Positions 2,006 to 23,197 of a stretch of DNA of 26,722 nucleotides are shown here, piece after piece. The notes beneath the pieces are model-generated. The model was not told the origin of the DNA. It searched no databases and saw only the letters and a list, made by a program, of their open reading frames with translations. Each line of letters starts with the position of its first letter. The first letter of the stretch is position 1. The DNA lies in IMG/VR virus record IMGVR_UViG_3300042556_002422, positions 1-26,722 of that record; one strand, written 5' to 3'. The position numbers and the translations under genes are program-made. Source of the stretch: a virus.

Positions 2006-2874
2006 AATAATTCTAAAATGTTATTAGCAATCTTTGCTGCATCAAAATTGTCTTTGCAACGATAATCGCCGTGCTTGCATACTACTTGTCTTACTGGTCT
2101 CTCTTGTACATCATTACATCCTACACAATCTATGTTAGATAAAATTGGAATAGCATTTTGATCTCTAGGTAAAATTCTGTCTGGTAATAAATGGGTATGT
2201 AAAGAAATTATGTTAGCTACACCTGCGCTGGCTATATGATAAGGTCCACTGTCTGTGCCTACAAAACACCTAGCATTGTCCATTAAGAGTTTTTGTTGTT
2301 GTACGCTAAGTTTATCTCTAGCATCAACAAACAACGGGTGTTCAACGTATCCGTCATGTGCAGTTCCTACACACACAATCTTTATATCTGTACGAACACT
2401 AAAAATCTGTTCAAATATGGGGTACCATGTATCCCAACTCATATTTTTTAATGGCCAATACCACTGTCTAATATGAACTACAATGTATTCATCTATTGCA
2501 TTACTTTCAAAAAATGCATTTACAATTTCCACATCTGATTCTGTTGCAAATAGTTCTGGTTTTTTGTTTGCTACAGTTGATGTACCAAAAGCGCGATAGA
2601 AATAGCTGTCCAGGTAATGATTAACTGGATTACACTCGTAACTGTCATCCAAATTTATATACATATCATAGGCCGCAGGATCTGGCATAGCATTGGTATG
2701 ATAGATAGCTCTTACATTAGGATTGTTATCGTACACATTAGGAAATTCTGTAGCAATGTCAATGTTGCATTGATAACGATGCTTTAATTGGCGCACAACT
2801 CCGGTACTCATTATTACATCACCTAGTGCTGCCCTGCGCCTTACTAATATTTGTAGTGGTTGTTCAATATTCAT
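2002..2874 (-). CDS. Glycosyltransferase family 9 (heptosyltransferase-like)
   Basis: A 290-residue GT-B glycosyltransferase. RRRAALGDVIMSTGVV (12-27) is the family 9 N-terminal loop with its conserved Gly-Asp. VVHIRQWYWPLK (132-143) matches the inter-domain strand. GTDSGPYHIASA (206-217) is the hallmark donor-nucleotide motif, with the D-S-G-x-x-H pattern. The C-terminus has four cysteines (250, 253, 266, 273) in the pattern often seen after this motif in the family. Predicted role: transfer of ADP-heptose or a similar activated sugar onto an envelope glycan or a phage product. It overlaps the next upstream gene by 11 bases and the compact GT9-like gene by four. Acceptor unknown. Confidence 0.85.
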   Translation of the reverse strand: MNIEQPLQILVRRRAALGDVIMSTGVVRQLKHRYQCNIDIATEFPNVYDNNPNVRAIYHTNAMPDPAAYDMYINLDDSYECNPVNHYLDSYFYRAFGTSTVANKKPELFATESDVEIVNAFFESNAIDEYIVVHIRQWYWPLKNMSWDTWYPIFEQIFSVRTDIKIVCVGTAHDGYVEHPLFVDARDKLSVQQQKLLMDNARCFVGTDSGPYHIASAGVANIISLHTHLLPDRILPRDQNAIPILSNIDCVGCNDVQERPVRQVVCKHGDYRCKDNFDAAKIANNILELL

Positions 2875-3913
2875 ATAATGTCTTTTGCAATATGTTAGTA
2901 AATTGTAAATCTGGTCTTTGTTGTATAACTAGATTTTTATTGTGTTGAATTGCTGGAATACATTTTTCATATGCAAGTTTAATAATTTCAATTGGCTGAC
3001 TTAAAAACTCAATTAAACTTGTCCTGGCGGCAATTAATCGTCGGCCTGACTCTATAATAGAGTCATAACTAGTATCTATAATGCCATCAAAAGTACAATA
3101 GCCTTGTTGGCGCAAATACTTCAAACTGCCGTGATGTCCAATGTAAAAGAATAATTGCTGATAATTCATGGCATTAAAAACTTTTTCGCTTAAAAATACG
3201 CCTTGATCAAAAAATGTATCTGCAACAATACCTAAGTAACTATCTAAATAAAAATCTACATTAGTTTGCGAGAATTCTATGGTATTGTCAAGTGCAGGCA
3301 GAGGGACTTGATTGGTTATCAAATTACATTGTTCATCAATGTAATTACCAGCCGGTTCTTCAACTTGATGTTGTACCCATGGGCCCGGTATGTCAGTATG
3401 AACACATTTGTAATTTACAATCCCGTCTTTGATAAAATTGTTACCTATTAATCCTGCTAACACAAATCTTCTGGTATACCAATCCTTGCTACTAGACCAG
3501 TAAAATTTTTTATTTTTTATACGCCGACAATCTTGTTGCCAATCTCTCTTATGATTTTCTGTTCTTCTCGTCCAGTGAAAATTACTGACCATATCAAACA
3601 TTGATATTCTATGATATCGAAAACTGCTGCTAGGCATGTCATATTCTGCATCAGGAGTCAACTTACCAGTAAAAACTACTACTGGATTAGAAATACTCTG
3701 ACAAAAACTGTCCAGCGGGTTTACCCAAAAATCTCTTTCTTGTATGCATTGGAATGCACCTAGTAATATAATTAATGTGTTTTTGTCTTTAACAGGAATA
3801 CTATTAACATGTTCTAAAATAGTGTGTAAATGGCTAGGATATAGATGTTCTAAAGCAAAATTATCAGTTGGTATTTCTAATTGTATGTCGTATTCGCCGG
3901 TGTCATAAATCAT
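2864..3913 (-). CDS. Uncharacterised protein, possible exostosin/fucosyltransferase-like glycosyltransferase
   Basis: A 349-residue protein without an assured family. The C-terminal half contains SEKVFNAMNYQQLFFYIG followed by a GSLKYLRQQGYCTF stretch (roughly residues 242-276). This resembles the donor-binding (S/T)EK-x-(F/W) region of fucosyltransferase and exostosin-type GT-B enzymes. The middle has many Trp, Tyr and Arg residues, including SSSKDWYTRRFVLAGL. No signal peptide or membrane segment is evident. It lies in the sugar operon between the DUF6165-like and GT9 genes with 4- and 11-base overlaps, so a role in the same glycan assembly is likely. The enzymatic assignment is inference from one motif. 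Confidence 0.5.
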   Translation of the reverse strand: MIYDTGEYDIQLEIPTDNFALEHLYPSHLHTILEHVNSIPVKDKNTLIILLGAFQCIQERDFWVNPLDSFCQSISNPVVVFTGKLTPDAEYDMPSSSFRYHRISMFDMVSNFHWTRRTENHKRDWQQDCRRIKNKKFYWSSSKDWYTRRFVLAGLIGNNFIKDGIVNYKCVHTDIPGPWVQHQVEEPAGNYIDEQCNLITNQVPLPALDNTIEFSQTNVDFYLDSYLGIVADTFFDQGVFLSEKVFNAMNYQQLFFYIGHHGSLKYLRQQGYCTFDGIIDTSYDSIIESGRRLIAARTSLIEFLSQPIEIIKLAYEKCIPAIQHNKNLVIQQRPDLQFTNILQKTLYEY

Positions 3914-4269
3914 ACATTCGTTTTAATTTCTCTTACCGGATCATTTAATTTTGATGCGACAGCATTTTTTAAATTTACTCTAAATTGATTGTAATCTCTA
4001 ATTTCTAATGCACGCCTACCAACTTCAGCCAAATCTGTGCCGTCTATTTTACACTTTTTAAAATCGTCTTCGAGACTCCAAATTTTATTGTGTAAGATTT
4101 TCAATGCCTGCAATTCATCCCAAATCAATATCTTGTCAATGCTGTTCATTTGCTGTTCATAGAAATCAAGTTCAGCTTGATTAGCTCCACTTGTACGGTC
4201 ATACTTTACCTGTGCAATAGTATAGCGATCAACAAGTTCCATAACAGGAAATTTATAATCCAACTTCAA
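3910..4269 (-). CDS. DUF6165-like small conserved protein
   Basis: A 119-residue helical protein. The N-terminal PVMELVDRYTIAQVKYDR and the middle LHNKIWSLEDDFKKC, with a closing RDYNQFRVNLKNAVASKLND segment, match the layout of the DUF6165 family. Members of that family typically have GE(L/V)VDKLTIL..., LW-x-IEDD and ND-x-R-x-x-x-KR-x-IN blocks. Their function is unknown, but they are often found beside glycosyltransferase genes, as here. It overlaps the upstream methyltransferase gene by 17 bases and the downstream gene by four. It has no catalytic signature that I can identify. Confidence 0.6.
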   Translation of the reverse strand: MKLDYKFPVMELVDRYTIAQVKYDRTSGANQAELDFYEQQMNSIDKILIWDELQALKILHNKIWSLEDDFKKCKIDGTDLAEVGRRALEIRDYNQFRVNLKNAVASKLNDPVREIKTNV

Positions 4270-5470
4270 CCTCCGGGAAATACCGTAAAAATCTATCTAT
4301 ATCTACATCTCGTACTTGTTTAATTTTATTTTTAATTTCTCTAAAGAAATTCCAAGCAAGTGGTACAAATAAAATTTTCTGACTTTTACTATAATTCATT
4401 GTTACATAGTCCATACTAACAATTGGAATATCTCTTCCTGGACTTACGTGATTTTGTTTCAGAGGATTATCATCTACAATTATATCTAAATCAACTTCAG
4501 AAAAGTTTAGTAGTGTATTACCTTTGGCAGCAGCGCCATACCCAACTATTTTAAATCCGCTTTTCCTATAATCATCGATGATGTCACTGAATTCTTTGGT
4601 AATAGCCAATGCTCGTTTTTCCCATCTGATGTAGGTTTCTGGCTGTAATAAACTTCGCTCCATTTCAATAAGATTAGCAATGTGCTTGGATCTTTTCTTG
4701 TGTTTACTAAGAACAAATACATAGCTGGTGCCATGGATAGGAGTTTTAATTACATCAATTAAATAGAACGGGCTGCGTTTTGCCATTGCATTAAATGAAT
4801 TAATGTTGTAAAAACTAATATGTTCGTGATAAATTGTGTCAAACTCGCCATTGAGCACCATATCAGCTTGACTAGTCTGAATGAACACATAGCTTTTATC
4901 TCGGGTTACTTCATCTAACAACTCAAGAAACTTTACAGGATCGGTGTTGTGTGCAAATGCATTTTGACAAACTACAATATCAAACTTGTTGTGTTTCAAT
5001 TGTTTGATGCTTTTCTTATTCCAAAAACCGCAAACAACTTTGTGTCCTTTGGAAGAACTGGTTTCGTGCAAGTTCTCTGCCGGATCCACACCATAGGTGT
5101 TGTAACCAAGATTGGCAAATGCGTCCAATTGACTGCCATCATTGCAACCGATATCTAATATATGTCCGCGCCATTGATCAGTGTATTCTCTACACCATTT
5201 GGCAAACCACGACATGTAATCAAGATAGGTTTGACTAGTGCCGCTTACATAAGCATAGTCTCTATAGATTAACTCCGGATCAACTATGTGTGTTAATTGT
5301 AAATGGTAACAATCTCTGCAACGATTTACTGCCAACGGAAAATAAGGTTCATCTTTGTTGGCATGTGTGGGATATGTGTTTGCTAGTGGCTGATCATTAA
5401 GATCAAGAGTCAATACTAAATTATCACTACCACAGGCTACACATTCATTTAGTTTAGTTAAGTTTTCCAT
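4253..5470 (-). CDS. SAM-dependent sugar C-methyltransferase
   Basis: A 405-residue enzyme with the three-part layout of deoxysugar C-methyltransferases such as TylCIII and TcaB9. The N-terminal zinc-binding domain has C10-x2-C13 and C51-x2-C54. A Rossmann methyltransferase core follows with HILDIGCNDGSQLDAF as SAM motif I, and a FDTIYHEHISFY segment carries the His-Glu-His stretch typical of the active site. The C-terminal domain contains KIVGYGAAAKGNTLLNF. Predicted reaction: methyl transfer from SAM to a carbon of an NDP-4-keto-deoxysugar. It lies three bases downstream of the preceding gene, in the same operon as an RmlB-like dehydratase that could supply the keto-sugar. Confidence 0.88.
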   Translation of the reverse strand: MENLTKLNECVACGSDNLVLTLDLNDQPLANTYPTHANKDEPYFPLAVNRCRDCYHLQLTHIVDPELIYRDYAYVSGTSQTYLDYMSWFAKWCREYTDQWRGHILDIGCNDGSQLDAFANLGYNTYGVDPAENLHETSSSKGHKVVCGFWNKKSIKQLKHNKFDIVVCQNAFAHNTDPVKFLELLDEVTRDKSYVFIQTSQADMVLNGEFDTIYHEHISFYNINSFNAMAKRSPFYLIDVIKTPIHGTSYVFVLSKHKKRSKHIANLIEMERSLLQPETYIRWEKRALAITKEFSDIIDDYRKSGFKIVGYGAAAKGNTLLNFSEVDLDIIVDDNPLKQNHVSPGRDIPIVSMDYVTMNYSKSQKILFVPLAWNFFREIKNKIKQVRDVDIDRFLRYFPEVEVGL

Positions 5471-5473
5471 TGT

Positions 5474-6184
5474 TTAGTTTTTGATAGCAACTCCGTTTGG
5501 CGCTATAAATCCCTCAACACCTAATAAAGGAATTTCTTGCACCAAAGATTCAGGCAAAAATTTGTATAAGACATGTTCAATATCAGCGTAGCCACCTTGA
5601 CTAACACGATTGCCAATATAAGACAGACTATCTTCGTAAACTTGAATCACTGTATCAAGTTGTTCAGCAGGCCAACTCCATAATCTAGCCATGTACTGTA
5701 GTTCAATACCAGTTATTTGAAAAGGAAATTGACTTTGATGTTTTGGACCAATAATAATTTTGTTGAGATGTTGCTCATAAACATCTAAATTAAAATCATC
5801 GTTCAGTACATACCGTCCAGACATTTTATGAATTCTATCATACCCTGTAAAGTCACCGTCATTCTGGCAGATGCGTAGTGTCCTACCAAAACACATAATC
5901 TCGGTAGAATTTTTTACCACATCCCAATTGTCACTTTGATAAATTGCATGCACATCCAAATCGTTGCTAAAGTCTATTAGCAAGTCACTGTTATCTTCAA
6001 GTGTCTGACTTTGACTAGCACTTATCGGTGTACCTGCACACTCCATTACAATAATTTTTGCACCAGGAACTCGAAATCTGATATTTTGTAGTGTGATAAC
6101 AGTTTGTGCCAGTCTTTCTTCAGGACTATAAACTCCAAATTTACTATTGACAGCAGATGTAACTATAAAACAATGTTTAATCAT
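5474..6184 (-). CDS. Conserved protein of unknown function
   Basis: A 236-residue protein that I cannot place in a named family. The N-terminal half reads like an alpha/beta domain: HCFIVTSAVNSKFGVYS, later KIIVMECAGTP, then LLIDFSNDLDVHAIYQSDNW. A YDRIHKMSGRYVLNDDF segment sits in the middle. The pattern of a short hydrophobic strand, an extended acidic loop and a central R-x-x-K-x-SGRY box could fit a GT-A-like nucleotide-sugar fold, but no clear DxD is present. It is coupled by four bases to the RmlB-like gene upstream and ends three bases before the C-methyltransferase gene, which implies sugar-related work. No function is assigned. Confidence 0.6.
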   Translation of the reverse strand: MIKHCFIVTSAVNSKFGVYSPEERLAQTVITLQNIRFRVPGAKIIVMECAGTPISASQSQTLEDNSDLLIDFSNDLDVHAIYQSDNWDVVKNSTEIMCFGRTLRICQNDGDFTGYDRIHKMSGRYVLNDDFNLDVYEQHLNKIIIGPKHQSQFPFQITGIELQYMARLWSWPAEQLDTVIQVYEDSLSYIGNRVSQGGYADIEHVLYKFLPESLVQEIPLLGVEGFIAPNGVAIKN

Positions 6185-7215
6185 TTACGCAACCATCTTT
6201 CATTTTGCAGTGTCCATTGCACCACTTCGTCAATTCGTTCGCTTAGTTTGATTCGTGGTTCCCAACCTAAACTTCTAAGTAGTCCGCCGTCTAGTGCATA
6301 ACGCATGTCATGACCCGGACGGCTGGTGTGAAAGTCGGTCATTTCGTACTTGAGTTCTTGGCCTACAGCAGCGGCAATCATTTGTGCTAGTGTAAGATTG
6401 TCAATTTCTTCAGTACCAACAAGATTAAACTTTGGACAGTGGGCGTGTCCATAATCCCCTTGGTGACGATAATCCTTGAGGCCGAGTATGAACATAAGAC
6501 CCTCAGCAACATCTCTGGCATGAATGTACATTCTACTACCAGCCACGGTTCTCGTTGGATCACTGTGTATGATGACTGTTTCCCCATCTCTCGCCTTCTG
6601 AATTGTACTAGGAATAAATTTTTCTGGATGTTGTCTTTCCCCAAACACATTCATGGTATGCGTGACAACGATAGGCATTTTGTAAGTATTTTCATAAGCC
6701 ACACAAAATTCTTCCGCTGCCGCTTTTGACGCAGAATATGGATTGGTGCTGTTGTATCGATCATATTCTTTATAAGCCACACCAGGTGGTGCGATTCCAT
6801 AAATTTCATCGGTAGAAAAGTATACAAAGCGTTCAAGATTGGGATGATTTTTTCTAGCATAGTCTAGTAAATTAACTGTTCCGACCACATTGTCCTGTAC
6901 AAATTCCATAGGATAAGCAATCGAACGGTCTACATGACTGCCAGCAGCAAGATGTAATACTATATCTACAGGCCCAATATCCTGAACAATTTGACTATTA
7001 ATTTCTGCTCTGAGATCGTGAAAAATAATACGCAGCCTTTGACTAACCATTTTTGCGTCATGATCTTGCAACATATCGTGTAGTCTATTTAGATTGCCAC
7101 TGATGTCTAATCTATCTAAACAAACGATATGCCAATCAGTAGTTTGTAAAATTAAGTCAATTACATGATGCGCAATAAATCCAGCACCGCCGGTGATTAA
7201 TACTTTTTTTGACAT
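6181..7215 (-). CDS. NAD-dependent nucleotide-sugar dehydratase/epimerase, RmlB-like
   Basis: A 344-residue extended short-chain dehydrogenase. The N-terminal ITGGAGFIAHH (7-17) is the NAD-binding glycine motif. STDEIYG (134-140) holds the Thr/Asp/Glu of 4,6-dehydratases, and Y160-x3-K164 in NPYSASKAAAE is the catalytic pair. NVFGERQHPEKFIP matches the sugar-nucleotide binding loop. The STDE motif points to a 4,6-dehydratase rather than a simple 4-epimerase. It lacks the (K)xTYAGN block of classical dTDP-glucose enzymes, so the nucleotide is uncertain. The start is backed by GAGGA about 4 bases upstream of ATG. A late-promoter-like AATAAATA box lies 29 bases upstream. A second RmlB-like gene is at 15663. 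Confidence 0.87.
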   Translation of the reverse strand: MSKKVLITGGAGFIAHHVIDLILQTTDWHIVCLDRLDISGNLNRLHDMLQDHDAKMVSQRLRIIFHDLRAEINSQIVQDIGPVDIVLHLAAGSHVDRSIAYPMEFVQDNVVGTVNLLDYARKNHPNLERFVYFSTDEIYGIAPPGVAYKEYDRYNSTNPYSASKAAAEEFCVAYENTYKMPIVVTHTMNVFGERQHPEKFIPSTIQKARDGETVIIHSDPTRTVAGSRMYIHARDVAEGLMFILGLKDYRHQGDYGHAHCPKFNLVGTEEIDNLTLAQMIAAAVGQELKYEMTDFHTSRPGHDMRYALDGGLLRSLGWEPRIKLSERIDEVVQWTLQNERWLRK

Positions 7216-7453: not shown

Positions 7454-8335
7454 TCATGCAGCTTGTGACAAATACCTTTTGTCCGGTATTGCGTCAACAC
7501 AGCTTTTACATAGTGTTTCGTTAGTAAAATGGGGTAGTTTATTTAATTCTAAAAGTTTTTGCATTGCAGGACCATTTAAGATATCGTCATAAGAATCAGT
7601 CAGTAGATTGCCCATAACGTGTTTTTTGTCGTAATCCATACAACACAACAATACTTCTCCGTTTGGTAAAAGGACTCCTTGATTATAAAGTATAGTTTTA
7701 CCGCAAACAACAGGCCCTTCGTGTCTTGGAGTAAGTTTAATTACTTGCCCTTTAACTTGTTCTTTGTTAAGTAAACCTGCACGATCGTGCGCAGCTATGT
7801 CCCATCGATGACTAGGTGCCGCTCCGGGTAAATGTTGTATGGAGGGATGTATTCCATCGTCGCTCATGGTCATGGCCTCATAATGAACGCCGGCAGTTTG
7901 CAATATAGTTCTCATGCCTATATAGGCGTATTCCCATTCTTCGCTGTGTTTCCACCCTTTCATGTTACCGGCTGCATCCGGAAAATGAATTTTAAAAATA
8001 TCAAATTTGTCTGCGTACCGTAAAACAATTTCACCAACCCTGTGAACTGTTTGTTCATCCCAATTGTACAGAGTAGTAAAGATTGCCACTCTGTGTCCTT
8101 TTTCAAGCACATACTCTAACATGTCACTACAATCAGGGTTAACCCAAGGTTCGGCCTGTCCACTAAAATCAATTCGCACATATTCAGGCACTTTGTCTAT
8201 CATGATTTTAAAATCATCAAAGCTCATGTATTTGACGTCATCGCCGTAGACATCTCGCAAATTGTCTTGCGGGCAATATGTACACATTAATGGACAACCT
8301 ATCATGGTTGTAATTTCAATTTGATAAAAATTCAT
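7454..8335 (-). CDS. Radical SAM protein with C-terminal SPASM-like domain
   Basis: A 293-residue radical SAM enzyme. C14-x3-C18-x2-C21 in GCPLMCTYC binds the [4Fe-4S] cluster that cleaves SAM, and DFSGQAEPWVNPD (about 57-69) matches the SAM-binding GGE-type motif region. The C-terminal part has CGKTILYNQG, LPNGEVLLCCMDY, GNL and C-x2-C (CKSC), the cysteine layout of a SPASM auxiliary-cluster domain. SPASM enzymes usually modify peptides or carbohydrates. The gene starts three bases after the stop of the GT17-like gene and is cotranscribed with it, so a sugar or glycoconjugate substrate is possible. Substrate unknown. Confidence 0.87.
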   Translation of the reverse strand: MNFYQIEITTMIGCPLMCTYCPQDNLRDVYGDDVKYMSFDDFKIMIDKVPEYVRIDFSGQAEPWVNPDCSDMLEYVLEKGHRVAIFTTLYNWDEQTVHRVGEIVLRYADKFDIFKIHFPDAAGNMKGWKHSEEWEYAYIGMRTILQTAGVHYEAMTMSDDGIHPSIQHLPGAAPSHRWDIAAHDRAGLLNKEQVKGQVIKLTPRHEGPVVCGKTILYNQGVLLPNGEVLLCCMDYDKKHVMGNLLTDSYDDILNGPAMQKLLELNKLPHFTNETLCKSCVDAIPDKRYLSQAA

Positions 8336-9267: not shown

Positions 9268-9924
9268 TTGAAATTTGCTCTTGTAACTGCTCACAATGAG
9301 GCTTACCAACCTTTAGCAGATATTACCTGGAATCAAAATAAAAAAGTCTATTGCGAAAAATGGGGTTACGACGCACTTGCAATGACCACTGGATTTAAAC
9401 ATCCGGTACAATATATAAGTTTTGAGCGTACACGTTACATTGCAGATCTACTAGAATCAGGAAAATATGATTGGATTCATGCAGTAGGTTGCGATACTAT
9501 GATTACAAATTTTAACATCAAACTAGAAGATTTAATAGACAACGACTTTGATTTTGTTATTGCCACCGATTGCTATAATATCAACAATGACAGCTTTCTA
9601 GCTAGAGCTACAGATACAACTATAAAGTGGTTGCGTAATACAGTCAATCTACTAGACAGCTACACTAATGCTAAATGGTTGGATCAGTCGGCCATGATAG
9701 ATACTATTGATATGATGGCAGACCGTATTAAAATTGTGCCACAGCGAACTATGAATTCATACGATTATGATCTTTATCCCGGACTAGTTCCTCACATTTA
9801 CAAAAAAGATCTATTAGGCAACGATGGCCAATGGCAATCAGGAGATTTTTTAATTCACTGGCCTGCTGTACCTTTAGCGACTAGAATCAAACTGGCACAA
9901 GAAATGCTAGGACAAGTTATCTGA
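9268..9924 (+). CDS. GT34-like (GMA12/MNN10) galactosyl/mannosyltransferase-type protein
   Basis: A 218-residue protein with the core of the GMA12/MNN10 family, GT-A fold enzymes that transfer galactose, xylose or mannose. FALVTAHNEAY opens the fold. DWIHAVGCDTMITN (68-81) holds the metal-site region around D76, in place of the usual DxD. NNDSFLARAT, WLDQSAMID and QWQSGDFLIHWPAV match the family's substrate-binding and C-terminal His blocks. The start is TTG at 9268: AAAGGA is seven bases upstream and a strong promoter immediately precedes. It is the first gene of the rightward operon, sharing one base (TGATG) with the next gene. Donor unknown. Confidence 0.75.
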   Translation: MKFALVTAHNEAYQPLADITWNQNKKVYCEKWGYDALAMTTGFKHPVQYISFERTRYIADLLESGKYDWIHAVGCDTMITNFNIKLEDLIDNDFDFVIATDCYNINNDSFLARATDTTIKWLRNTVNLLDSYTNAKWLDQSAMIDTIDMMADRIKIVPQRTMNSYDYDLYPGLVPHIYKKDLLGNDGQWQSGDFLIHWPAVPLATRIKLAQEMLGQVI

Positions 9925-10652
9925 TGAGATTATCAAATATAAACTACCATGAAGTCACATGCAAGATATGCAATCATGACACATCTATCTGGGGTTGTGT
10001 TGATTTTAATAAAAACTGCGAAGAACGTAACGGTATGTATTTGCCTTATACCGGGGTATCTGTTTATTATTTAAAATGCAATCACTGTGAATTTATTTTT
10101 AGTCCAGATTTTGATACTTGGACCAAAGAAGATTTCAAAGAACTTATTTACAATGATGACTATATTATAGTTGATCCCGAATACAACGGCCAAAGAAGTA
10201 TCAATGATGCTCAATATTTTCTTAATCGTTTACAGATAAAAAAAGATATTGACATCTTGGATTACGGAGCAGGTCCTGCTGTATTAGGTAAAGAATTAGC
10301 AAAACACGGATATTCAGTTGACAGTTGGGATCCTATGTGGGGCACCAATCCAGACTGGGATAAAGATAAAAAATTTGATTTAGTTATGGCCTGGGAAGTT
10401 CTCGAACACACTCCTACTCCTATACAAACCATAGCAGAAATGCATAGTTGGTTAAAACCTGGTGGATCAATATTACTAGCAACTTGCAGCACAGGAATAA
10501 TGCAGGGACGCCGTGATCCAACATTTTGGTATTTGAGTCCTCGCAATGGTCATATTTGCATGTATTCAGATATGAGTTTAGATATTTTGTTTTCAAATTT
10601 TGGTATGAGGGTGCAGCACGATCCATGGAATATTCACTTAGCGAGTTATTAA
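9924..10652 (+). CDS. SAM-dependent methyltransferase with N-terminal zinc-ribbon-like motif
   Basis: A 242-residue class I methyltransferase. Two CxxC pairs, C13/C16 and C52/C55, suggest a small zinc-binding head like that of sugar C-methyltransferases, but the long C-terminal domain of those enzymes is missing. SAM motif I is ILDYGAGPAVLGKEL (111-125), and DLVMAWEVLEHT with LKPGGSILLAT are motifs II and III. The product could be an O- or C-methylated sugar or glycan. It sits between the GT34-like and RfbH-like genes and overlaps the first by one base. A related but longer methyltransferase lies at 4253-5470. Confidence 0.82.
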   Translation: MRLSNINYHEVTCKICNHDTSIWGCVDFNKNCEERNGMYLPYTGVSVYYLKCNHCEFIFSPDFDTWTKEDFKELIYNDDYIIVDPEYNGQRSINDAQYFLNRLQIKKDIDILDYGAGPAVLGKELAKHGYSVDSWDPMWGTNPDWDKDKKFDLVMAWEVLEHTPTPIQTIAEMHSWLKPGGSILLATCSTGIMQGRRDPTFWYLSPRNGHICMYSDMSLDILFSNFGMRVQHDPWNIHLASY

Positions 10653-10653
10653 T

Positions 10654-11973
10654 ATGAAAGAAATTTTAGAACAAGTACGACAATATATTCAAGAAAAACA
10701 GACAAATAGGACCTGGACAGCAGGTAAAGATTTTGTAAACTATGCAGGTACCTACTACAATGAAGATGAATATGCAGCTGGTGTTGAAAGCTTGCTTAAG
10801 GGCTGGTTGGCAATGGGCAGCGAAAGCCTGAAGTTTGAAAGACAATTTCCTAAACAGTTTGGAAAGACTGGTGGTATAGTTACTAACAGCGGTAGCTCAA
10901 GTAACTTACTAATGATGGCAAGCTTGACTAGCAAGCGGGGCTACAACTTTCCCAAAGGCACCAAAGTCTTAATGCCAATTGCAGGATTTCCTACTACACT
11001 AAACCCTACATTACAAGTGGGTTTTGAACCTATTTTCGTTGACATTGAATTGGACACATTAAACATCGATCTAGAGCAAGCAGAGCGAGTATTGCGTAAT
11101 GATCCTTATATCAAGGTGATTACATTTGCGCATGTGCTAGGTAACCCACCAAACATGGATCAGCTGATGGAGTTAGTTGAAAAATATAAACTGGTGTTGC
11201 TAGAAGATTGCTGTGATGCTCTTGGTAGCACATACGACAATAAGCCATTAGGTTCATTTGGTTTAATGGCTTCGTGTTCATTTTATCCAGCACATCACAT
11301 GACCATGGGCGAAGGTGGTTTTGTGGTCACAGATGATCAAAATCAAGAAGTTATTCTACGTAGTCTAAGAGAATGGGGCCGTGGTTGTTATTGTGTAGGT
11401 CCCGAAGCTAACAAATTAAAATGCGGTACATGTGGGACTAGATTCAGAGAATGGATTCCAGAACTGCCCGGCGAAATATTTGATCACAAATACGTTTACG
11501 ATGAAATTGGATACAATTTAAAACCAATTGAACTGCAATGTGCAATGGGTATGCAGCAACTAAAGAAACTGCCAGAGATTCATTCTTTGCGCCGGCGCAA
11601 TTATCAACTGTTGTTTGATATCTATTCTAAATACGAAGAATTCTTCTATCTTCCTAGAGCACGAGATAAATCTGATCCAAGTTGGTTCGCATTTCCATTA
11701 ACTATTAGATCAAGCGCACCATTTACTCGTGCAGATATAGTAGATTATTTAGAAGAAAATCTAATTCAAACTCGTCCATACTTTGCAGGCAATATTATGT
11801 TGCAACCAGCATACAGTCATTTAATGGATCCTGCTCGGGCCAGAGACGATTTTCCAAATGCCACACATGCCATGACACATACCTACTTCCATGGTACTAG
11901 TCCGGTAATTACACCAGAACAAATTGCCTACATAGGCGAAAAGGTTGATGGATTTATGAGTTTGTTTCAATGA
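10654..11973 (+). CDS. RfbH/DdhC-like NDP-4-keto-6-deoxyglucose 3-dehydratase (E1 type)
   Basis: A 439-residue member of the DegT/DnrJ/EryC1/StrS superfamily in the special E1 (RfbH, DdhC, SpnQ) branch. LLEDCCDALGSTYD (182-195) is the cofactor-binding strand. FYPAHHMTMGEGG (210-222) has histidine where aminotransferases have the PLP-binding lysine, the hallmark of the 3-dehydratases. REWGRGCYC followed by KCGTC (C245, C247, C257, C260) supplies cysteines for the iron-sulfur cluster of E1-type enzymes. Length matches RfbH. Known E1 removes the C3 hydroxyl of CDP-4-keto-6-deoxyglucose using PMP and electrons from a reductase (E3), which is not in this window. It overlaps the next gene by four bases. 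Confidence 0.9.
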   Translation: MKEILEQVRQYIQEKQTNRTWTAGKDFVNYAGTYYNEDEYAAGVESLLKGWLAMGSESLKFERQFPKQFGKTGGIVTNSGSSSNLLMMASLTSKRGYNFPKGTKVLMPIAGFPTTLNPTLQVGFEPIFVDIELDTLNIDLEQAERVLRNDPYIKVITFAHVLGNPPNMDQLMELVEKYKLVLLEDCCDALGSTYDNKPLGSFGLMASCSFYPAHHMTMGEGGFVVTDDQNQEVILRSLREWGRGCYCVGPEANKLKCGTCGTRFREWIPELPGEIFDHKYVYDEIGYNLKPIELQCAMGMQQLKKLPEIHSLRRRNYQLLFDIYSKYEEFFYLPRARDKSDPSWFAFPLTIRSSAPFTRADIVDYLEENLIQTRPYFAGNIMLQPAYSHLMDPARARDDFPNATHAMTHTYFHGTSPVITPEQIAYIGEKVDGFMSLFQ

Positions 11974-13136
11974 AAAATCTAAGCCAAGTCACCAAAAACA
12001 TAGACGGTCAGCCTATGTTCAAGTATTTAGACAAAGCAAAAACCCTTGAGGCCCAAGGAAAGCATCTTATACACATGGAAATAGGAGAACCAGATTTTGA
12101 TACTCCTATGAATGTTACCTGGGCTGCTGTTAAATCTTTAGCATCTGGCGAAACACATTACGAAAGCAGTTTTGGGCTATTAGAATTCAGACAAGCCGTG
12201 CAATTTGCCACTGAAAGAAGCAGAGGCTTTCGCCCAGACATTGACCAGATTCTAATCACTCCTGGTGCAAACATTGCAATTTTTTATGCTGTGTTTTGTT
12301 TGGTTGATCCTGGCTACGAAGTTATTGTGCCAGATCCGGGATTCAGCACATATTATAGCAACATAAAGATGTGCGGAGCTGTGCCTGTTAGAGTTCCCCT
12401 AAAAGAAGAAAATCAATTTAGAATGAACCCAAGTGATATAGAAGCAGCTATCACCGATAAGACAAGATTAATAATAATTAACAGCCCGCAAAATCCTACT
12501 GGCAGTCTTTTAACTCAAGAAGATGTAAAAAGAATATATGAAATTGCTAAAAAATATGACATCTATGTTTACAGTGACGAAATATATGCTAGGATGACAT
12601 ATGATCCCGTGGGATTTAGCAGTCCTAGCATCTATGATCATTGTAGAGAACATGTAATTTTAGCCAATGGATTTTCAAAAGCCTTTGCAATGACTGGCTG
12701 GAGATTAGGCACAGTAATAGGACCATCAGTTGTGATTGAAAGAATGGCCGCACTATTACAAACTACGTCAAGTTGCGTTAGCCCTTTTATACAACGAGCA
12801 GGAATTGAAGCAATTCGTGGTAGTCAAGAAACAGTAACTAATATGATGCATGAATATAAAATGCGTCGAGATCTGTTAGTGGATGGGCTCAACAGAATTA
12901 AAGGAATTACTTGTCTTAAACCTGGCGGAGCATTTTATGTGTTTCCCAACATCAAAGACACAGGACTTACCAGTGATGAAGTAGTTGAAAAACTACTACA
13001 AGGAGGTGTGGTTACATTACCAGGTCATTGTTTTGGTGAATATGGCAATGGGTATATTAGACTGTGCTATGCCACAAGTAGAGAAAATATTCAAGAAGCA
13101 TTGCATAGAATACAAAAAGTATTGGGGTTGAAATGA
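11970..13136 (+). CDS. Class I/II PLP-dependent aminotransferase (AspC-like)
   Basis: A 388-residue fold-type I aminotransferase. GEPDFDTP (39-46), NSPQNPTGS (171-179), YSDEIYARM (201-209) and NGFSKAFAMTGWRLG (233-247) are the standard blocks, with K237 as the PLP Schiff-base lysine. The C-terminal GYIRLCYATS contains the substrate-carboxylate arginine. The family uses aspartate, aromatic amino acids or alanine. Its place between the 3-dehydratase and the ThDP enzyme, with four-base overlaps on both sides, suggests it feeds or draws on the same pool, for example making pyruvate from alanine. That role is inference. It is not a DegT-type sugar aminotransferase. Confidence 0.88.
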   Translation: MKNLSQVTKNIDGQPMFKYLDKAKTLEAQGKHLIHMEIGEPDFDTPMNVTWAAVKSLASGETHYESSFGLLEFRQAVQFATERSRGFRPDIDQILITPGANIAIFYAVFCLVDPGYEVIVPDPGFSTYYSNIKMCGAVPVRVPLKEENQFRMNPSDIEAAITDKTRLIIINSPQNPTGSLLTQEDVKRIYEIAKKYDIYVYSDEIYARMTYDPVGFSSPSIYDHCREHVILANGFSKAFAMTGWRLGTVIGPSVVIERMAALLQTTSSCVSPFIQRAGIEAIRGSQETVTNMMHEYKMRRDLLVDGLNRIKGITCLKPGGAFYVFPNIKDTGLTSDEVVEKLLQGGVVTLPGHCFGEYGNGYIRLCYATSRENIQEALHRIQKVLGLK

Positions 13137-14140
13137 GAGTTTGTGATTGGATAGCCAATTACTTGAAGTCAATTGGTGTGGAACGAGTGCATGGATTAAT
13201 GGGCGGTGGCGCCAGCGGTCTAAATGATGGTTTTATCAAGCAAGACATGCCTTATATTTGCTATCATCATGAACAGGGTGCAGGACATGCTGCCATCGGT
13301 GAAAGTAAATTTACAGGAAAACTAGCTGTAGTAAATCCTACCACAGGGTGTGCCGGAACTAATTGTGCCACCAGTGTGTTAAATGCCTGGCAAGATAGTG
13401 TTCCTGTTTTATTTCTCAGTGGTAATGTTCGTTTAGATACATGCTCAGGACATATCAATAAACAAAAAAATATCAATATAAGAAAGTACGGTATTCAAGA
13501 ACATCATGTAGTAGATACTTATAAATCAATGACCAAGTTTTCTTACTTTATTGATAATGTTGATGATGTGTGTTATGTTCTACAATATGCTGTACATGCT
13601 GCACAATCTGGACGACCTGGTCCTGTTTGGATAGATATTCCAGGAAATATTCAAACGGCAGAAATGCCTGTATCTTATAAAGAATATCAACCGCTGCAAC
13701 TACAACAACAAGTTGATGATTTGTCTTTTATCAAGCAATCTATTGAAAAATCTCAAAGGCCGATCGTTCTTGCTGGTTACGGAATTAGACAAAGTAACAC
13801 TGTTGATCTTTTCGTGCAGTTTATTGAAAAATATCAGATACCTTACGTTAGCACATACGGTGCTAGAGATTTTACAGCAGACAAGCACCCATTAAGCATA
13901 GGCGCTGTAGGAATAAAAGGAAGTAGAGCAGGCAACTTTGCTATGCAAAATGCTGACTTACTATTGGTTTTAGGCAGTAGCCTAGGAGCAAGTGTTATCG
14001 GATATGATCCTAAACAGTTTAGCCCAGCCAGTTATAAAATAATAGTTGATATTGACATAGAAGAATTGAAAAAAGATATTGTAAAAATTGATGCAAAATA
14101 CAATATTGATCTTGAAAAATTTTTTAGAGGTATGTTTTGA
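13133..14140 (+). CDS. Acetolactate-synthase-like ThDP enzyme, PYR plus central domain subunit
   Basis: A 335-residue protein matching the first two domains of acetolactate-synthase-type ThDP enzymes found in polysaccharide loci. The PYR domain has GLMGGGASGLNDGF and YHHEQGAGHAA, where E47 is the glutamate that activates ThDP. VNPTTGCAGTNCATSVLNAW and GRPGPVWIDIPG follow. The central domain runs to the end (SLGASVIGYDPKQF), as in YerE-type flavoenzymes. The PP domain is absent here and is encoded by the next gene. The protein ends FFRGMF and stops at TGA 14138-14140, which overlaps the TTG start of the partner. Together the two chains sum to 582 residues, the normal full enzyme length. Predicted role: attach a two-carbon unit from pyruvate to a keto-sugar. 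Confidence 0.85.
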   Translation: MRVCDWIANYLKSIGVERVHGLMGGGASGLNDGFIKQDMPYICYHHEQGAGHAAIGESKFTGKLAVVNPTTGCAGTNCATSVLNAWQDSVPVLFLSGNVRLDTCSGHINKQKNINIRKYGIQEHHVVDTYKSMTKFSYFIDNVDDVCYVLQYAVHAAQSGRPGPVWIDIPGNIQTAEMPVSYKEYQPLQLQQQVDDLSFIKQSIEKSQRPIVLAGYGIRQSNTVDLFVQFIEKYQIPYVSTYGARDFTADKHPLSIGAVGIKGSRAGNFAMQNADLLLVLGSSLGASVIGYDPKQFSPASYKIIVDIDIEELKKDIVKIDAKYNIDLEKFFRGMF

Positions 14141-14880
14141 ACAGAAAAGAATGGATCAACAAATGCGGCGATTGGAAAACCAAATGGCCTGTTATGCAAC
14201 CAGAGTATGAAGCAAGCAACAATGACCATAGGTTAAACATCTATGCGGTATTGGATGCAGTAAACAAACACAGCCGCATTGAAGACATTATTATGGGCGA
14301 TGCTGGTAGTATCAGTTATGCCGGTCCTGTGGCTTTAAATGCCAAACAAGGTCAACGATTTATCTTTAGTCCAGCACAGGCTGATATGGGATGGGCATTA
14401 CCAGCAGCAATTGGGGTATCAATGGCAAGTGATCAACCTATTATCTCTATAATTGGAGATGGTAGTTTCATGAGTAACATTCAAGAACTTGCTGTAGTAA
14501 AGCAACACAACCTTGATATAAAATTTATAATCCTAAATAACAATGGTTATCTAAGCATTAAAAATACCCAGACAAAATACTTTCAAGGTAGAGTATATGG
14601 TACCAGCAGTGAAACCGGTCTTTGGTTTCCTAATTTTAAGAATATAGCAGAAGCTTTTGGTCTAGATTATCACGATGCTAGTCAGGCCGGCGATCTTGAA
14701 AGATTTGGTGAATGGTTTGCCCAGCCGGGACCATCAATTATTGATTGTCAATGTCTAGCAGAGCAAGAAATACTTCCAGCTCAAGCACTTAAAAATGGTA
14801 AACAAGCAGGTCTTCATGACATGACTCCATTCCTAAGCGACAAAGAGCTTGCAGACGAAATGATTGTCAAAATCGAATGA
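14137..14880 (+). CDS. Acetolactate-synthase-like ThDP enzyme, PP-domain subunit
   Basis: A 247-residue protein equal to the C-terminal PP domain of acetolactate-synthase-like enzymes. GDGSFMSN (107-114) through LNNNGY (133-138) forms the GDG-x(24-27)-NN motif that binds Mg-ThDP diphosphate. QADMGWALPAAIGVSMA (81-97) is another family block. The start is TTG at 14137, with AGAGG six bases upstream (14126-14130). In-frame TAG at 14125 blocks any longer reading. The N-terminal linker NRKEWINKCGDWKTKWPV is what normally joins the central and PP domains, so this is a split enzyme and not a separate decarboxylase beta chain. It overlaps the reductase gene by four bases. Confidence 0.85.
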   Translation: MNRKEWINKCGDWKTKWPVMQPEYEASNNDHRLNIYAVLDAVNKHSRIEDIIMGDAGSISYAGPVALNAKQGQRFIFSPAQADMGWALPAAIGVSMASDQPIISIIGDGSFMSNIQELAVVKQHNLDIKFIILNNNGYLSIKNTQTKYFQGRVYGTSSETGLWFPNFKNIAEAFGLDYHDASQAGDLERFGEWFAQPGPSIIDCQCLAEQEILPAQALKNGKQAGLHDMTPFLSDKELADEMIVKIE

Positions 14881-15659
14881 AAGTAGCAGTTTTAGGTTCG
14901 TCTGGATATTTAGGTTCATACATTGTAAACAATATTCAAAATTGTACTGTTTATCCTATTACTAGAGACACCATTGATTTGACCAATGTTGATCAAGTAA
15001 GAAATTTTCTCATATCAACTACCCCTGATGTTATAATTAATTGTGCTACTTCTGGTGGAAAAACAAAGATGGGAGAAAATAATTTCCTGGACATTCAAAA
15101 TAACTTGTCTGTGTTTTTAAGTTTTTATAATAGCAGCGACCTAGTTCCAAAATTTATAAATGTAGGAAGTGGTGCGGAATTTGATATTAGTAAAAATATC
15201 GATCTTTGCAAAGAGGAAAGCATATTAGAATCATTTCCTAACGAATCGTATGGGTATAGTAAAAATATAATATCAAGATTGTGTTTAGCAAAAGAAAATT
15301 TTTACACACTAAGACTCTTTGGTTGTTTTGATAAATCAGAACCTGATTTTAGATTATTTAAGAAACTTCTTAGAGGTCAAGTAAATAGTATAATAGATAG
15401 ACAATTTGATTTCTTCAGCGCCAGTGATTTTGTTAGGGTTTTAGAACTTTATATTTTCGAAAACCAATTGCCTCAAGACATCAACTGTGTTTATCAAAAA
15501 AAATACATGTTGAGCGAAATATTACATAAATTTAATAAAGAGTTTGTTGTTGAGGGAATTAATGCAAACAATTATACCGGCGATTCTACAAAATTAGATT
15601 CGTTAAATATCGAACTCGAAGGTCTTCAAAGCGGAATTAACAAGTACATAAATGCGTAA
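14877..15659 (+). CDS. NAD(P)-dependent nucleotide-sugar reductase/epimerase, RmlD-like
   Basis: A 260-residue short-chain dehydrogenase. GSSGYLG (7-13) is the nucleotide-binding turn and Y124-x3-K128 in ESYGYSKN is the catalytic pair. The order TPDVIINCAT, then KFINVGSGAEF, matches RmlD/WcaG-type enzymes. The chain is short (typical 290-310) and its reading is rich in Asn, Ile and Lys, with AT-rich codons more marked than in its neighbours. Placed after the ThDP enzyme, it is a candidate for the ketoreductase that completes a branched sugar, in the position of YerF. This role is inference. A plain 4-ketoreductase for the dehydratase product is an alternative. Confidence 0.8.
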   Translation: MKVAVLGSSGYLGSYIVNNIQNCTVYPITRDTIDLTNVDQVRNFLISTTPDVIINCATSGGKTKMGENNFLDIQNNLSVFLSFYNSSDLVPKFINVGSGAEFDISKNIDLCKEESILESFPNESYGYSKNIISRLCLAKENFYTLRLFGCFDKSEPDFRLFKKLLRGQVNSIIDRQFDFFSASDFVRVLELYIFENQLPQDINCVYQKKYMLSEILHKFNKEFVVEGINANNYTGDSTKLDSLNIELEGLQSGINKYINA

Positions 15660-15662
15660 ACT

Positions 15663-16613
15663 ATGAAAAAAATTGTTTATATTACAGGTTGTTTGGGTTT
15701 TATTGGAATACATCTAACTCGAGCCTGCTTAGAAAAAAAATGGTATGTTATTGGTGTAGATAAAATGACCTATGCTAGTAATAAATCATTTCTGGCAGAG
15801 TTTGAAAAATATCCTAACTTTAAGTTTATCGAATCTGACATCAATGATCTTGACATGCTGTACGACTGCGATTACATTATCAATACCGCAGCTGAAACAC
15901 ATGTTGATAACAGTATTGAAAGAAGCGATGTATTTTTACGAAGCAATGTAAACGGTGTGCATCATTTACTCAATCTGATTAAAGAACGTCATCGTTTCAA
16001 AATGCCTATACTATTACATTTTAGTACAGATGAAGTATACGGAGATATTGAAGAAGGTAGTCACGTTGAAACAGATTTGTTAAAACCAAGTAATCCTTAC
16101 AGTGCAACCAAAGCCGCAGCGGATCAATTAATTTTAGCATGGGCACGTACATTTAAGGTACCTTACGTTATTGTGAGACCAACCAACAACTACGGAATTG
16201 GTCAGTATACAGAAAAATTTATTCCTAAAAGTATTAAGCATCTTCAGTTAGGCAGACCAATTGCATTGCATGATGCAGGGACGCCACGACGCACTTGGTT
16301 ACACGTAAGTGATACTGCTAGTGCAGTAATTTGTATTATAGAAGCCGGTGTTCAAAATGAAATTTATAACATAAGTGGTAATCACGAGGAACAAAATATT
16401 GTAATCGCCATGCAGATAGTTGATATGTTTTGTCCTAAAAATGTTGAAGATTATGAGCAATATCTTAATTTAAATATAACCAGGCCAGGTCAAGATGTTA
16501 GATACAGTATTAATGATGATAAGCTAAAATTGTTGGGTTGGGAACCCAATGCAGTTTTTGAAGTGGAATTGGCTAAGATTGTTCAGTATTATTCTCAAAC
16601 GTTTGTGTGGTAG
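15663..16613 (+). CDS. dTDP-glucose 4,6-dehydratase-like protein (RmlB family)
   Basis: A 316-residue extended SDR. TGCLGFIG (8-15) binds NAD. GVDKMTYASN (31-40) corresponds to the TYAGN block of RmlB, which favours dTDP-glucose over CDP-glucose. STDEVYG (121-127) holds the catalytic Thr-Asp-Glu and Y146-x3-K150 (PYSATK) is the catalytic pair. RPTNNYGIGQYTEKFIPK and RRTWLHV are sugar-binding blocks. Predicted product: NDP-4-keto-6-deoxyglucose, the substrate class needed by the RfbH-like enzyme in this operon. It is the last gene of the cassette, and its 3' end overlaps the opposing DUF2452-like gene by 41 bases. Confidence 0.9.
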   Translation: MKKIVYITGCLGFIGIHLTRACLEKKWYVIGVDKMTYASNKSFLAEFEKYPNFKFIESDINDLDMLYDCDYIINTAAETHVDNSIERSDVFLRSNVNGVHHLLNLIKERHRFKMPILLHFSTDEVYGDIEEGSHVETDLLKPSNPYSATKAAADQLILAWARTFKVPYVIVRPTNNYGIGQYTEKFIPKSIKHLQLGRPIALHDAGTPRRTWLHVSDTASAVICIIEAGVQNEIYNISGNHEEQNIVIAMQIVDMFCPKNVEDYEQYLNLNITRPGQDVRYSINDDKLKLLGWEPNAVFEVELAKIVQYYSQTFVW

Positions 16614-20992: not shown

Positions 20993-22056
20993 TCCGCAGT
21001 TTCCTCTTGTGATTGATCAGCAGATTGTTTATGTGGATTTTGAGCAAAGTCTTCCATAACTTTGTCCAAGCTACCATCATCATTTCGTTCCCACGCTTTG
21101 CGGAATTGCTTGATGACTGTGCCGTCTGCTAGCGTGTATTTAAGACTGTTGCCTTCTTTGGTCAATAAACCTTTGCCTTCGAACATGTCAACTAGGCCCG
21201 AATACGGATTCATTCCAGTTTCGTATGGAATCTTGACCTGCACACTTTCAAACGGCTTGGCATAGCGAGTTTTCATAATCTTGCAAGCTGCGCGAATACC
21301 TTTGACTTCGCTAATTTTATTGCCATCTTCATCTTCTTTTAATTTTAACTTACGCATAGCAACAACGATACTGCTTGCATAGATAAAGCCTTGTCCGCCA
21401 CTAATTTTGTCATCAGGGTCAAACATGTCCTGGCTTGCGTATGTATGGTTGGTAGCAACCAGTCCAATGTTTAAACTACCAAACATGTTTACACAATTAC
21501 GAACAAGTGCTGTTAGTGCTTTGGGCTTACGACCCATGTCACCTTTAAGATCACCTGCTTCAAACTGGTTTACATCAGTTGGTGTTAGCAACATACCTAG
21601 ACTGTCTAATACGATTAAGACTTTAGGCCGCTGATCTTCAGGTAGCGTTTTGTATTCTTTAACAAACTCGGTAATCATTTTAGCAACATCGTCAATCATT
21701 GCCATGTTGAGTTTGAGAAGCTTGTCTTCAGAAGTATCGACGCCGAGTGCGTGAAGCCAGGCTTCGTCGAGTGCGTTTTCAGTATCAATAAGAATAACAT
21801 ATATACCTTGTTCTTGTGCGTTCTTAACCAGATTTCCTGAGCAGATAAAACTTTTACCTGCACCAGACTCTCCAGCAAATACAGTAACCTTACCCATTGG
21901 AATACCCTTATTAAAATCCCCGCTAATAAGATAGTTAAGAGCGTAATTGTTTGTGGAGATCCAGTCTGTGGGATCGTTAAATCCAACGGAGATACCGTCA
22001 ATACTTTTTGTAATACTTTTGCGAAATTTTGATACATCAAATGGTTTGGTTGCCAT
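20989..22056 (-). CDS. uvsX: UvsX, RecA-like strand-exchange recombinase
   Basis: A 355-residue RecA/Rad51-fold ATPase of the T4 UvsX type. Walker A is GESGAGKS (62-69) and Walker B is VLIVLD (146-151). IDTENALDEAW (90-100) carries the catalytic Glu region, and LVATNHTYASQDMFDPDD (about residues 198-215) is the loop 2 region, followed by SGGQGFIYASS. The tail is acidic (QSADQSQEETAE). Length is close to T4 UvsX (391) but shorter. UvsX forms filaments on ssDNA and drives strand exchange and recombination-dependent replication with gp32 and UvsY. Its AAGGAA ribosome site lies inside the end of the radical SAM gene, and the two genes overlap by 20 bases. No separate promoter is seen, so it depends on read-through from upstream. 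Confidence 0.95.
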   Translation of the reverse strand: MATKPFDVSKFRKSITKSIDGISVGFNDPTDWISTNNYALNYLISGDFNKGIPMGKVTVFAGESGAGKSFICSGNLVKNAQEQGIYVILIDTENALDEAWLHALGVDTSEDKLLKLNMAMIDDVAKMITEFVKEYKTLPEDQRPKVLIVLDSLGMLLTPTDVNQFEAGDLKGDMGRKPKALTALVRNCVNMFGSLNIGLVATNHTYASQDMFDPDDKISGGQGFIYASSIVVAMRKLKLKEDEDGNKISEVKGIRAACKIMKTRYAKPFESVQVKIPYETGMNPYSGLVDMFEGKGLLTKEGNSLKYTLADGTVIKQFRKAWERNDDGSLDKVMEDFAQNPHKQSADQSQEETAE

Positions 22057-23197
22057 AATTATAAAGTTCCTTAAAAATTTTAGTGCTGTCTAAGTTGCGT
22101 CGTTTATCTAATGTTTTAAGATATTCAAATAATTCATTGGTGTCTCCACCGGTTGATTCGTCTAAGTAATTTAATAAATTTTGTAATCCATTTTCTAATA
22201 AAAATCCTGGCTTTTTGTTAATTCTACTTTTTAATTCTTTCCTTGTAAAGTTTAGCATCTCGCTGGGCAATTGTCTAATATTTAGAACTTGAGGCCCGGT
22301 TAAAGGACCAGCAATAAAACTATTAGGATGAAATCCCAATCCGGAAAGGTAATCTATGCATTGGAATATGCTCATTGAATTCAATGCAAAATGCAGCATG
22401 TTAAATGATATTTTATGATCAAGATTTTTTAACACTAAAAGATTATCAACAAAATCTTGCCAACGACCGCCATATCTAATATATTCATATTCCGCTTCTA
22501 TTGATTCTAAACTTACAATCCAATGCACATTTTTAAATGAACACAATTTTTCAAAAATTCTAGTATCTACCTTACTTAAATTTGTGTTTATTCTAATATT
22601 GATTTCATTATTTTCTTTTAATAAAAATTCAAGCAATTCTAAATTTTCTTTCATTAGCAGTGGTTCGCCACCTGCTAGGTATATGTGTTTTAATTGCTTT
22701 GCGTTTTTATAAATGTAATCAGTAAATGCTGCGGCTCTATCGCTCGCAGGAGTTTTTATTCGAACTCCAATTTCGTTTTCCCATTTGCTACTAAACTCAG
22801 GACCACAGTAAACACAGGCAAAATTGCACAAATTTGACCATCTAACATCAGCAGTTAGCAAATTGAACTTGGTTGGATCGGCATATAGTTCCAAGGGCTC
22901 TGATTTTAATTCTTTTATATAAAAAACTCTATCGCTTATAATCTCAAAACTATTGGTTTCTTTTTCTAAATTATAACACGGATAACATCGTGCACCAGGC
23001 TCGTTTATAATCATATCCAATTTAGTAGCGGTATTTTGCACCCCGTGTAGTATTTCTTCAATTGAGTTATTTTGAATGTTACCTATAAGTTTAGCACTAC
23101 GAATACAATTTTTTACATTGCCATCAAAATTGTACATCAGTCCAGTCCATGGAATTGGACAAAAATGTTTATTAGTTAAATAAGCCTTGGCTTTCAT
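22037..23197 (-). CDS. Radical SAM protein with N-terminal auxiliary cysteine domain (twitch type)
   Basis: A 386-residue radical SAM enzyme. The core motif is C124-x3-C128-x2-C131 in NLCNFACVYC, and YLAGGEPLL is the GGE motif. NIRINTNLS is the next barrel strand. The first 75 residues carry C13, C31, C71 and C74, in the arrangement C-x17-C...C-x2-C, which likely binds a second iron-sulfur cluster. SPASM-type clusters are usually C-terminal, so this order is reversed. The rest of the chain (about residue 290 onward) is helical. Substrate unknown. It overlaps uvsX by 20 bases and the SDR gene by four. Confidence 0.88.
   Translation of the reverse strand: MKAKAYLTNKHFCPIPWTGLMYNFDGNVKNCIRSAKLIGNIQNNSIEEILHGVQNTATKLDMIINEPGARCYPCYNLEKETNSFEIISDRVFYIKELKSEPLELYADPTKFNLLTADVRWSNLCNFACVYCGPEFSSKWENEIGVRIKTPASDRAAAFTDYIYKNAKQLKHIYLAGGEPLLMKENLELLEFLLKENNEINIRINTNLSKVDTRIFEKLCSFKNVHWIVSLESIEAEYEYIRYGGRWQDFVDNLLVLKNLDHKISFNMLHFALNSMSIFQCIDYLSGLGFHPNSFIAGPLTGPQVLNIRQLPSEMLNFTRKELKSRINKKPGFLLENGLQNLLNYLDESTGGDTNELFEYLKTLDKRRNLDSTKIFKELYNYGNQTI

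Follow-up and report, generated by a model that had tools for sequence, protein, structure and literature searches.

In the Yersinia pathway to CDP-yersiniose (CDP, cytidine diphosphate), an E1-type dehydratase, a YerE-like thiamine diphosphate (ThDP) enzyme and a short-chain dehydrogenase/reductase (SDR) are encoded in one cluster. YerE-like enzymes accept C2–C8 2-oxo-acid donors; YerE itself prefers pyruvate, ErwE prefers 4-hydroxy-2-oxo acids, both act on CDP sugars, and virus orthologues were named as unexplored in a 2025 review (PMC12247030). A further member, JanthE (PDB entry 8rph), joins 2-oxo acids to ketones (PMC12188165). For the branched octoses of avilamycin and paulomycin, a two-protein ThDP enzyme (AviB1/AviB2, Pau11/Pau12) was proposed to provide the C4 acetyl branch (PMC4753412). 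Here, we describe a gene cassette in a 26,722-base stretch of virus DNA, IMG/VR record IMGVR_UViG_3300042556_002422 (hereafter, the window), which, as judged from sequence comparison and structure modelling, probably specifies, at the class level, a pathway by which the virus would make a C4-branched 3,6-dideoxyhexose (probability about 0.7). The window carries UvsX-like and gp32-like genes; its source is a T4-like virus, and it is probably a piece of an incomplete virus genome.

The cassette comprises eight genes on the plus strand (9268–16613), with intergenic spacings, in order, of -1, +1, -4, -4, -4, -4, and +3 bases:

9268..9924, plus strand: GT34-like glycosyltransferase with a TTG start (PF05637, 41.8 bits)
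9924..10652, plus strand: S-adenosylmethionine (SAM)-dependent methyltransferase (PF13489, 77.9 bits)
10654..11973, plus strand: RfbH/E1-type NDP-4-keto-6-deoxyhexose 3-dehydratase (NDP, nucleoside diphosphate; NCBIfam NF011936, 440 bits, cut-off 423)
11970..13136, plus strand: class-I aminotransferase, proposed maker of the 2-oxo-acid donor (PF00155, 231 bits)
13133..14140, plus strand: YerE-like ThDP enzyme subunit 1, N-terminal and central domains (PF02776, PF00205)
14137..14140, plus strand: TTGA stop/start overlap splitting the ThDP enzyme (junction comparison)
14137..14880, plus strand: YerE-like ThDP enzyme subunit 2, C-terminal ThDP-binding domain (PF02775, 110 bits)
14877..15659, plus strand: SDR reductase, weakly RmlD-like, proposed YerF counterpart (PF01370, 49 bits; PF04321, 32 bits)
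15663..16613, plus strand: RmlB-type 4,6-dehydratase (TIGR01181, 302 bits; fingerprint TDE...YSATK)

Profile matches and coordinates located every gene named in the first-pass annotation at its expected place and strand; its list was correct, but overlooked the class-I aminotransferase between RfbH and the ThDP pair. A search of neighbourhoods in other viruses, which that annotation had proposed, showed RfbH together with the ThDP gene in 80 of 81 virus loci, with RmlB, the aminotransferase and the reductases also recurring in many of them, indicating that the arrangement is not due to chance and that the set is common to many environmental viruses. The RmlB-type dehydratase is the usual companion of the RfbH/ThDP pair; relatives of the SDR (31–53% identity) were seen in many virus loci, and GT34-like relatives (32–45% identity) adjoin the module in several.

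The ThDP pair had been predicted to act as a YerE-type enzyme on a 4-keto-3,6-dideoxy sugar made by RfbH, and clustering with acetolactate synthases had been named as the outcome that would refute this. Although the best NCBIfam matches of the pair were mostly acetolactate synthase models, the scores were far below every cut-off for acetohydroxyacid synthases. For the PDB sequence search and the fold prediction, we used a natural fused homologue from virus locus L064. Its best PDB match by sequence was JanthE (255 bits), followed by two acetolactate-synthase entries (208 and 184 bits). In the fold search with its model (pLDDT 87, pTM 0.91), JanthE chains occupied ranks 1–6 (TM-score about 0.90, E about 1e-53), ahead of the acetolactate synthases (TM-score about 0.83, E 3e-45).

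In the phylogenetic tree, where the YerE-like group was anchored by JanthE and by an enteric E3-RfbF-RfbG-RfbH-aldolase-ThDP cluster (L173), 30 virus ThDP proteins formed a single clade (SH-aLRT 100) inside the bacterial YerE-like sequences, and the eight acetolactate-synthase-type references were separate from the YerE-like side (SH-aLRT 99). The JanthE row was partial and its branch long, so that its exact position is unsure, but it lies on the YerE side. The catalytic Glu was present in 81/81 virus copies, the GDG..N ThDP-binding motif was conserved with variants, and the conserved GYLSIK.TQ stretch was like that of JanthE and unlike that of acetolactate synthase. The virus protein was 41–42% identical to the YerE-like proteins of two bacterial genomes, and 28–30% identical to their nearest acetolactate-synthase-like paralogues; about 42% was the upper limit among the nearest bacterial members found. 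Bacterial relatives, many of them located in RfbF/RfbG/RfbH clusters, were recovered from bacterial contigs when the profile was built from a JanthE-containing alignment, whereas the N-terminal half alone retrieved none. Phage matches to the N-terminal half in GenBank did not exceed about 32% identity; those with an annotation are acetolactate synthases.

These results, from sequence, tree, fold and residues, speak strongly against acetolactate synthase identity and place the predicted ThDP protein with the YerE-like ketone-branching enzymes, the opposite of the refuting outcome. Three related occurrences were also noted: a distant match (24%) at 327219–328193 of LR756511.1, a 595-kb uncultured phage; a similar fold in Mimiviridae sp. 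ChoanoV1, from a viral fold library; and a YerE-type cluster in L083 (CAMDCJ010000050.1), a contig whose title, that of a Rickettsia typhi metagenome-assembled genome, looks doubtful.

The ThDP enzyme is encoded as two genes in 76/81 virus loci and as one fused gene in the other five, whereas the characterised YerE-like enzymes are single polypeptides and no stop was found within the ThDP-enzyme match of 80 bacterial relatives. All 76 split loci share an identical 4-base, -1-frame junction (ATGA in 74, and TTGA in the window and in L059), and we therefore reject the idea that the split arose from a frameshift error in sequencing. The cut corresponds to residue 341 of the fused homologue, adjacent to a low-confidence linker (345–349) of the model. 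The tree nests the fused lineage within the split lineages, and a fused ancestral virus form with all split copies as one clade was rejected (p-AU 0.00028), so that re-fusion is favoured. The simplest history suggested by these sequences would be one fission in a virus ancestor and one later re-fusion.

The window RfbH scored above the curated RfbH cut-off, and its best PDB matches were Yersinia E1 (3bcx and 3bb8). The His in place of the PLP (pyridoxal phosphate) lysine, already pointed out in the first-pass annotation, was confirmed in all 73 virus copies longer than 350 residues, as were four Cys residues that correspond to the iron–sulphur (Fe-S) cluster ligands of E1. The RfbH of the window's virus type forms a separate clade with cyanophage RfbH, apart from the bacterial E1, and has an insert between the Fe-S cysteines. 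E1- and SpnQ-type enzymes complete the reaction with a reductase, and SpnQ uses general ferredoxin/flavodoxin reductases (PMC8987622). The reported lack of an E3 reductase held: 27 related virus records, possibly fragments, yielded no E3-type Fer2 protein, and we therefore assume that RfbH would receive host electrons.

A second virus type (L072–L078) has other phage genes, such as an apparent DNA polymerase A in L078 and a 2007-residue protein in L072, both assigned by inspection. Their split ThDP enzyme is the same, but its RfbH partner is nested among bacterial CDP-type E1, and most of these loci also have a bacterial-type SDR; none had a 4,6-dehydratase match. The RfbH partner of the split ThDP enzyme was, judging from these relationships, evidently exchanged.

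The nucleotide of the sugar was examined through the dehydratase. In published fingerprints, [ST]DE...YxxxK denotes the deoxythymidine diphosphate (dTDP)- or uridine diphosphate (UDP)-glucose type and [ST]DK the CDP-glucose type (PMC8987622). The window RmlB-like protein has the former, and scored only 60 bits against the CDP-type model TIGR02622. TDE was seen in 64/65 virus RmlB copies and [ST]DK in 33/38 bacterial RfbG copies. Among 80 loci of bacterial ThDP relatives, many on short contigs, RfbF was present in 40, RfbG in 46, and RfbH in 51. Conversely, neither the RfbF cytidylyltransferase nor the RfbG CDP-glucose 4,6-dehydratase was found in the window, and none of 21 virus records contained a CDP-glucose dehydratase over the TIGR02622 cut-off. 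The cassette was correctly described as devoid of a sugar-1-phosphate nucleotidyltransferase; the left edge of the window cuts through a cytidylyltransferase-like (HldE-type) gene, leaving a fragment (3–197), and NTP_transferase gave two weak matches in 27 virus records. The fingerprint, the lack of a CDP-glucose dehydratase and the two weak nucleotidyltransferase matches point to host dTDP-glucose as the likely start. Given the pathway class, the sugar nucleotide is thus quite likely to be dTDP rather than CDP. Of the Yersinia-like pathway suggested by the first-pass annotation, the core of E1-type and YerE-type enzymes stands, whereas the nucleotide probably differs.

The overlooked aminotransferase bears on the donor. 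In the window and in about half of the virus loci, RfbH and the ThDP pair come with a class-I aminotransferase, which usually lies between them. In seven bacterial clusters, a member of the same subfamily (49–64% identity) immediately precedes the ThDP gene, whereas the next-best aminotransferase paralogues in those genomes, where found, were 33–37% identical. The window protein most resembles aspartate/aromatic aminotransferases, and its alignment with them spans the regions of the PLP-lysine (NGFSK) and of the C-terminal arginine (RLCYAT). An aldolase, in most cases together with an acylating aldehyde dehydrogenase, occurs in nine other bacterial clusters and in virus loci L069 and L070; in the enteric cluster L173, an HpaI-type aldolase separates RfbH from ThDP (gene names by inspection). 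Aminotransferase and aldolase never occurred together in the loci seen, numbers too small for a test. The position beside the ThDP gene in the seven bacterial clusters, with aldolases instead in others, argues for the aminotransferase as the donor maker; given the pathway class, it is somewhat more plausible than the contrary that the genes in this slot supply a 2-oxo-acid donor. The two-carbon (yersiniose) branch proposed in the first-pass annotation does not follow, because YerE-like enzymes take the C2–C8 range of donors (PMC12247030) and the aminotransferase suggests a dedicated one.

Two variants of the slot were also recorded. In L069 (8106–9979) and L070 (6528–8401), the acylating aldehyde dehydrogenase and a 4-hydroxy-2-oxovalerate-type aldolase are 54–55% identical to those of a bacterial YerE-type cluster. 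In L043 (8834–9457 and 9457–9999; also in L041 and L042), an unrelated two-gene ThDP enzyme resembling 2-oxo-acid dehydrogenase E1 alpha/beta precedes the split YerE-like pair.

The families of the enzymes and their active-site residues, the conservation of gene order, and the splitting and re-fusion of the ThDP gene are what the analysis shows. We infer the substrates, donor, nucleotide, step order and destination of the pathway as follows. The RmlB-type enzyme would convert host-made dTDP-glucose to dTDP-4-keto-6-deoxyglucose, from which the RfbH/E1-type enzyme, with pyridoxamine phosphate and its Fe-S cluster, would strip the 3-hydroxyl. Since no E3 is encoded, the electrons would come from a host ferredoxin/flavodoxin reductase. 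The aminotransferase would convert an amino acid to a 2-oxo acid, which the two-subunit YerE-like enzyme would decarboxylate, transferring the acyl unit to C4 and creating a tertiary alcohol. The SDR would then reduce the ketone of the new branch, and the GT34-like transferase and the methyltransferase would link the sugar to a glycan of the virion or the host surface and modify it. We tentatively suggest that the cassette may be the first example of a virus-encoded route to a C4-branched 3,6-dideoxy sugar, and of a YerE-type route linked to dTDP, with a two-subunit enzyme and its own transaminase-derived donor; the branch may then exceed two carbons, and the sugar may be undescribed.

Several observations weigh against the proposed route. 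The RmlB-like protein, at 302 bits, is below the dTDP-glucose dehydratase cut-off of 365, and the activity of the split enzyme requires two-chain assembly, unlike that of the characterised YerE-like enzymes. The absence of a Fer2 protein and the two weak nucleotidyltransferase matches would make the pathway host-dependent. Many virus loci have nothing in the donor slot, L033 has an FkbM methyltransferase there and L043 the E1-alpha/beta-like pair, so that a gene devoted to the donor is no general requirement. It is conceivable, though rather unlikely, that the pathway runs as proposed, but that the aminotransferase has the sugar or some different metabolite as its substrate and that pyruvate present in the cell provides the branch, as would suit the about half of virus loci that lack the aminotransferase and the unrelated genes found in the slot. 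A class-I enzyme near the aspartate/aromatic aminotransferases would, however, be expected to use amino and keto acids, and this distinct subfamily is common to bacterial YerE-type clusters, with aldolases instead in other clusters.

A CDP-linked pathway exactly as for Yersinia yersiniose, using host CDP-sugars, RfbH and a YerE-type enzyme from the virus, and a two-carbon branch from pyruvate, with the RmlB-like gene serving another sugar, would agree with the CDP substrates of YerE and ErwE, with the pyruvate preference of YerE (PMC12247030), and with the second virus type (L065, L072–L078), whose CDP-type RfbH comes without its own dehydratase. We regard it as improbable, because RmlB lies in the same cluster and recurs with the module at 60–72% identity, no CDP-glucose dehydratase passed the cut-off in the 21 virus records, and the window-type RfbH is a separate clade with its insert. 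That the ThDP pair serves amino-acid metabolism in infection, as an acetolactate synthase or 2-oxo-acid decarboxylase beside an unrelated sugar pathway, is highly improbable. The top NCBIfam matches and a survey that placed a virus 'acetolactate synthase' gene in branched-chain amino acid metabolism (PMC8226683) speak for it, whereas the tree, the fold search and the conserved residues all favour YerE-like enzymes, RfbH is linked in nearly every locus, and the window revealed no further gene of a branched-chain amino acid pathway.

As for the destination of the C4-branched sugar, many genes of the window relate to glycans (GT34, GT17, GT9-like, C-methyltransferase and HldE-like pieces), and cyanophage RN05-S has a glycan cluster with an RfbH relative, in which no ThDP gene is annotated. 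A virion or host-surface glycan would fit this gene content. Conversely, nothing was found to link the sugar to DNA, which the first-pass annotation had listed as a destination: a gene with the thymidylate-synthase fold (that of dCMP hydroxymethylase) was absent from 21 related virus records, possibly fragments, and DNA hypermodification of the T4 kind is less likely.

A second sugar cassette lies on the minus strand of the window (3–7215). It contains an RmlB-like gene with the TDE fingerprint (6181–7215), a sugar C-methyltransferase-like protein (4253–5470; PF08421/PF08484), a cupin (160–528), a PfkB kinase (525–1256) and the cut cytidylyltransferase-like gene (3–197). This combination points to a split HldE and possibly to a sugar with a C-methyl branch. 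Three radical SAM-like proteins are also encoded on the minus strand (7454–8335, 22037–23197, and 24203–25135), two with SPASM domains and one adjoining UvsX.

Compared with YerE, ErwE and JanthE, the virus enzyme shares the predicted fold, the catalytic Glu, the position of the ThDP motif and the GY..IK.TQ stretch, as well as the linkage to RfbH and an SDR, whereas it has two chains, is virus-borne, and occurs with a dehydratase of the RmlB type where theirs is of the RfbG type. Unlike the Yersinia CDP-yersiniose cluster, the virus cassette has no RfbF, RfbG or E3, and has a dTDP-type dehydratase and an additional aminotransferase. The erwiniose-type clusters (ErwE; L173) have the same order of RfbH, donor-slot gene, YerE-like gene and SDR, but their slot holds the HpaI-type aldolase, with more aldolase and aldehyde dehydrogenase genes downstream, where the virus has the aminotransferase. 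AviB1/AviB2 and Pau11/Pau12 are of the 2-oxo-acid dehydrogenase type, whereas the two virus proteins are the halves of an enzyme of the decarboxylase type. The new elements are the split, and in one lineage re-fused, YerE-like enzyme, the dTDP-type dehydratase, the aminotransferase in the donor slot, and the second virus type with a CDP-type RfbH.

Since general models score this family as acetolactate synthase, viral gene surveys may misread some members as amino-acid metabolism. Phages hold a large conserved set of YerE-like enzymes, which make chemically interesting tertiary alcohols, and the natural split and re-fusion reveal a site where the enzyme tolerates cutting. The change from a CDP- to a dTDP-type dehydratase provides a testable hypothesis on activator switching in sugar pathways. 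Finally, the bacterial and virus clusters together suggest a rule, by which the gene near the ThDP enzyme makes the 2-oxo-acid donor, and which could predict unknown branched sugars.

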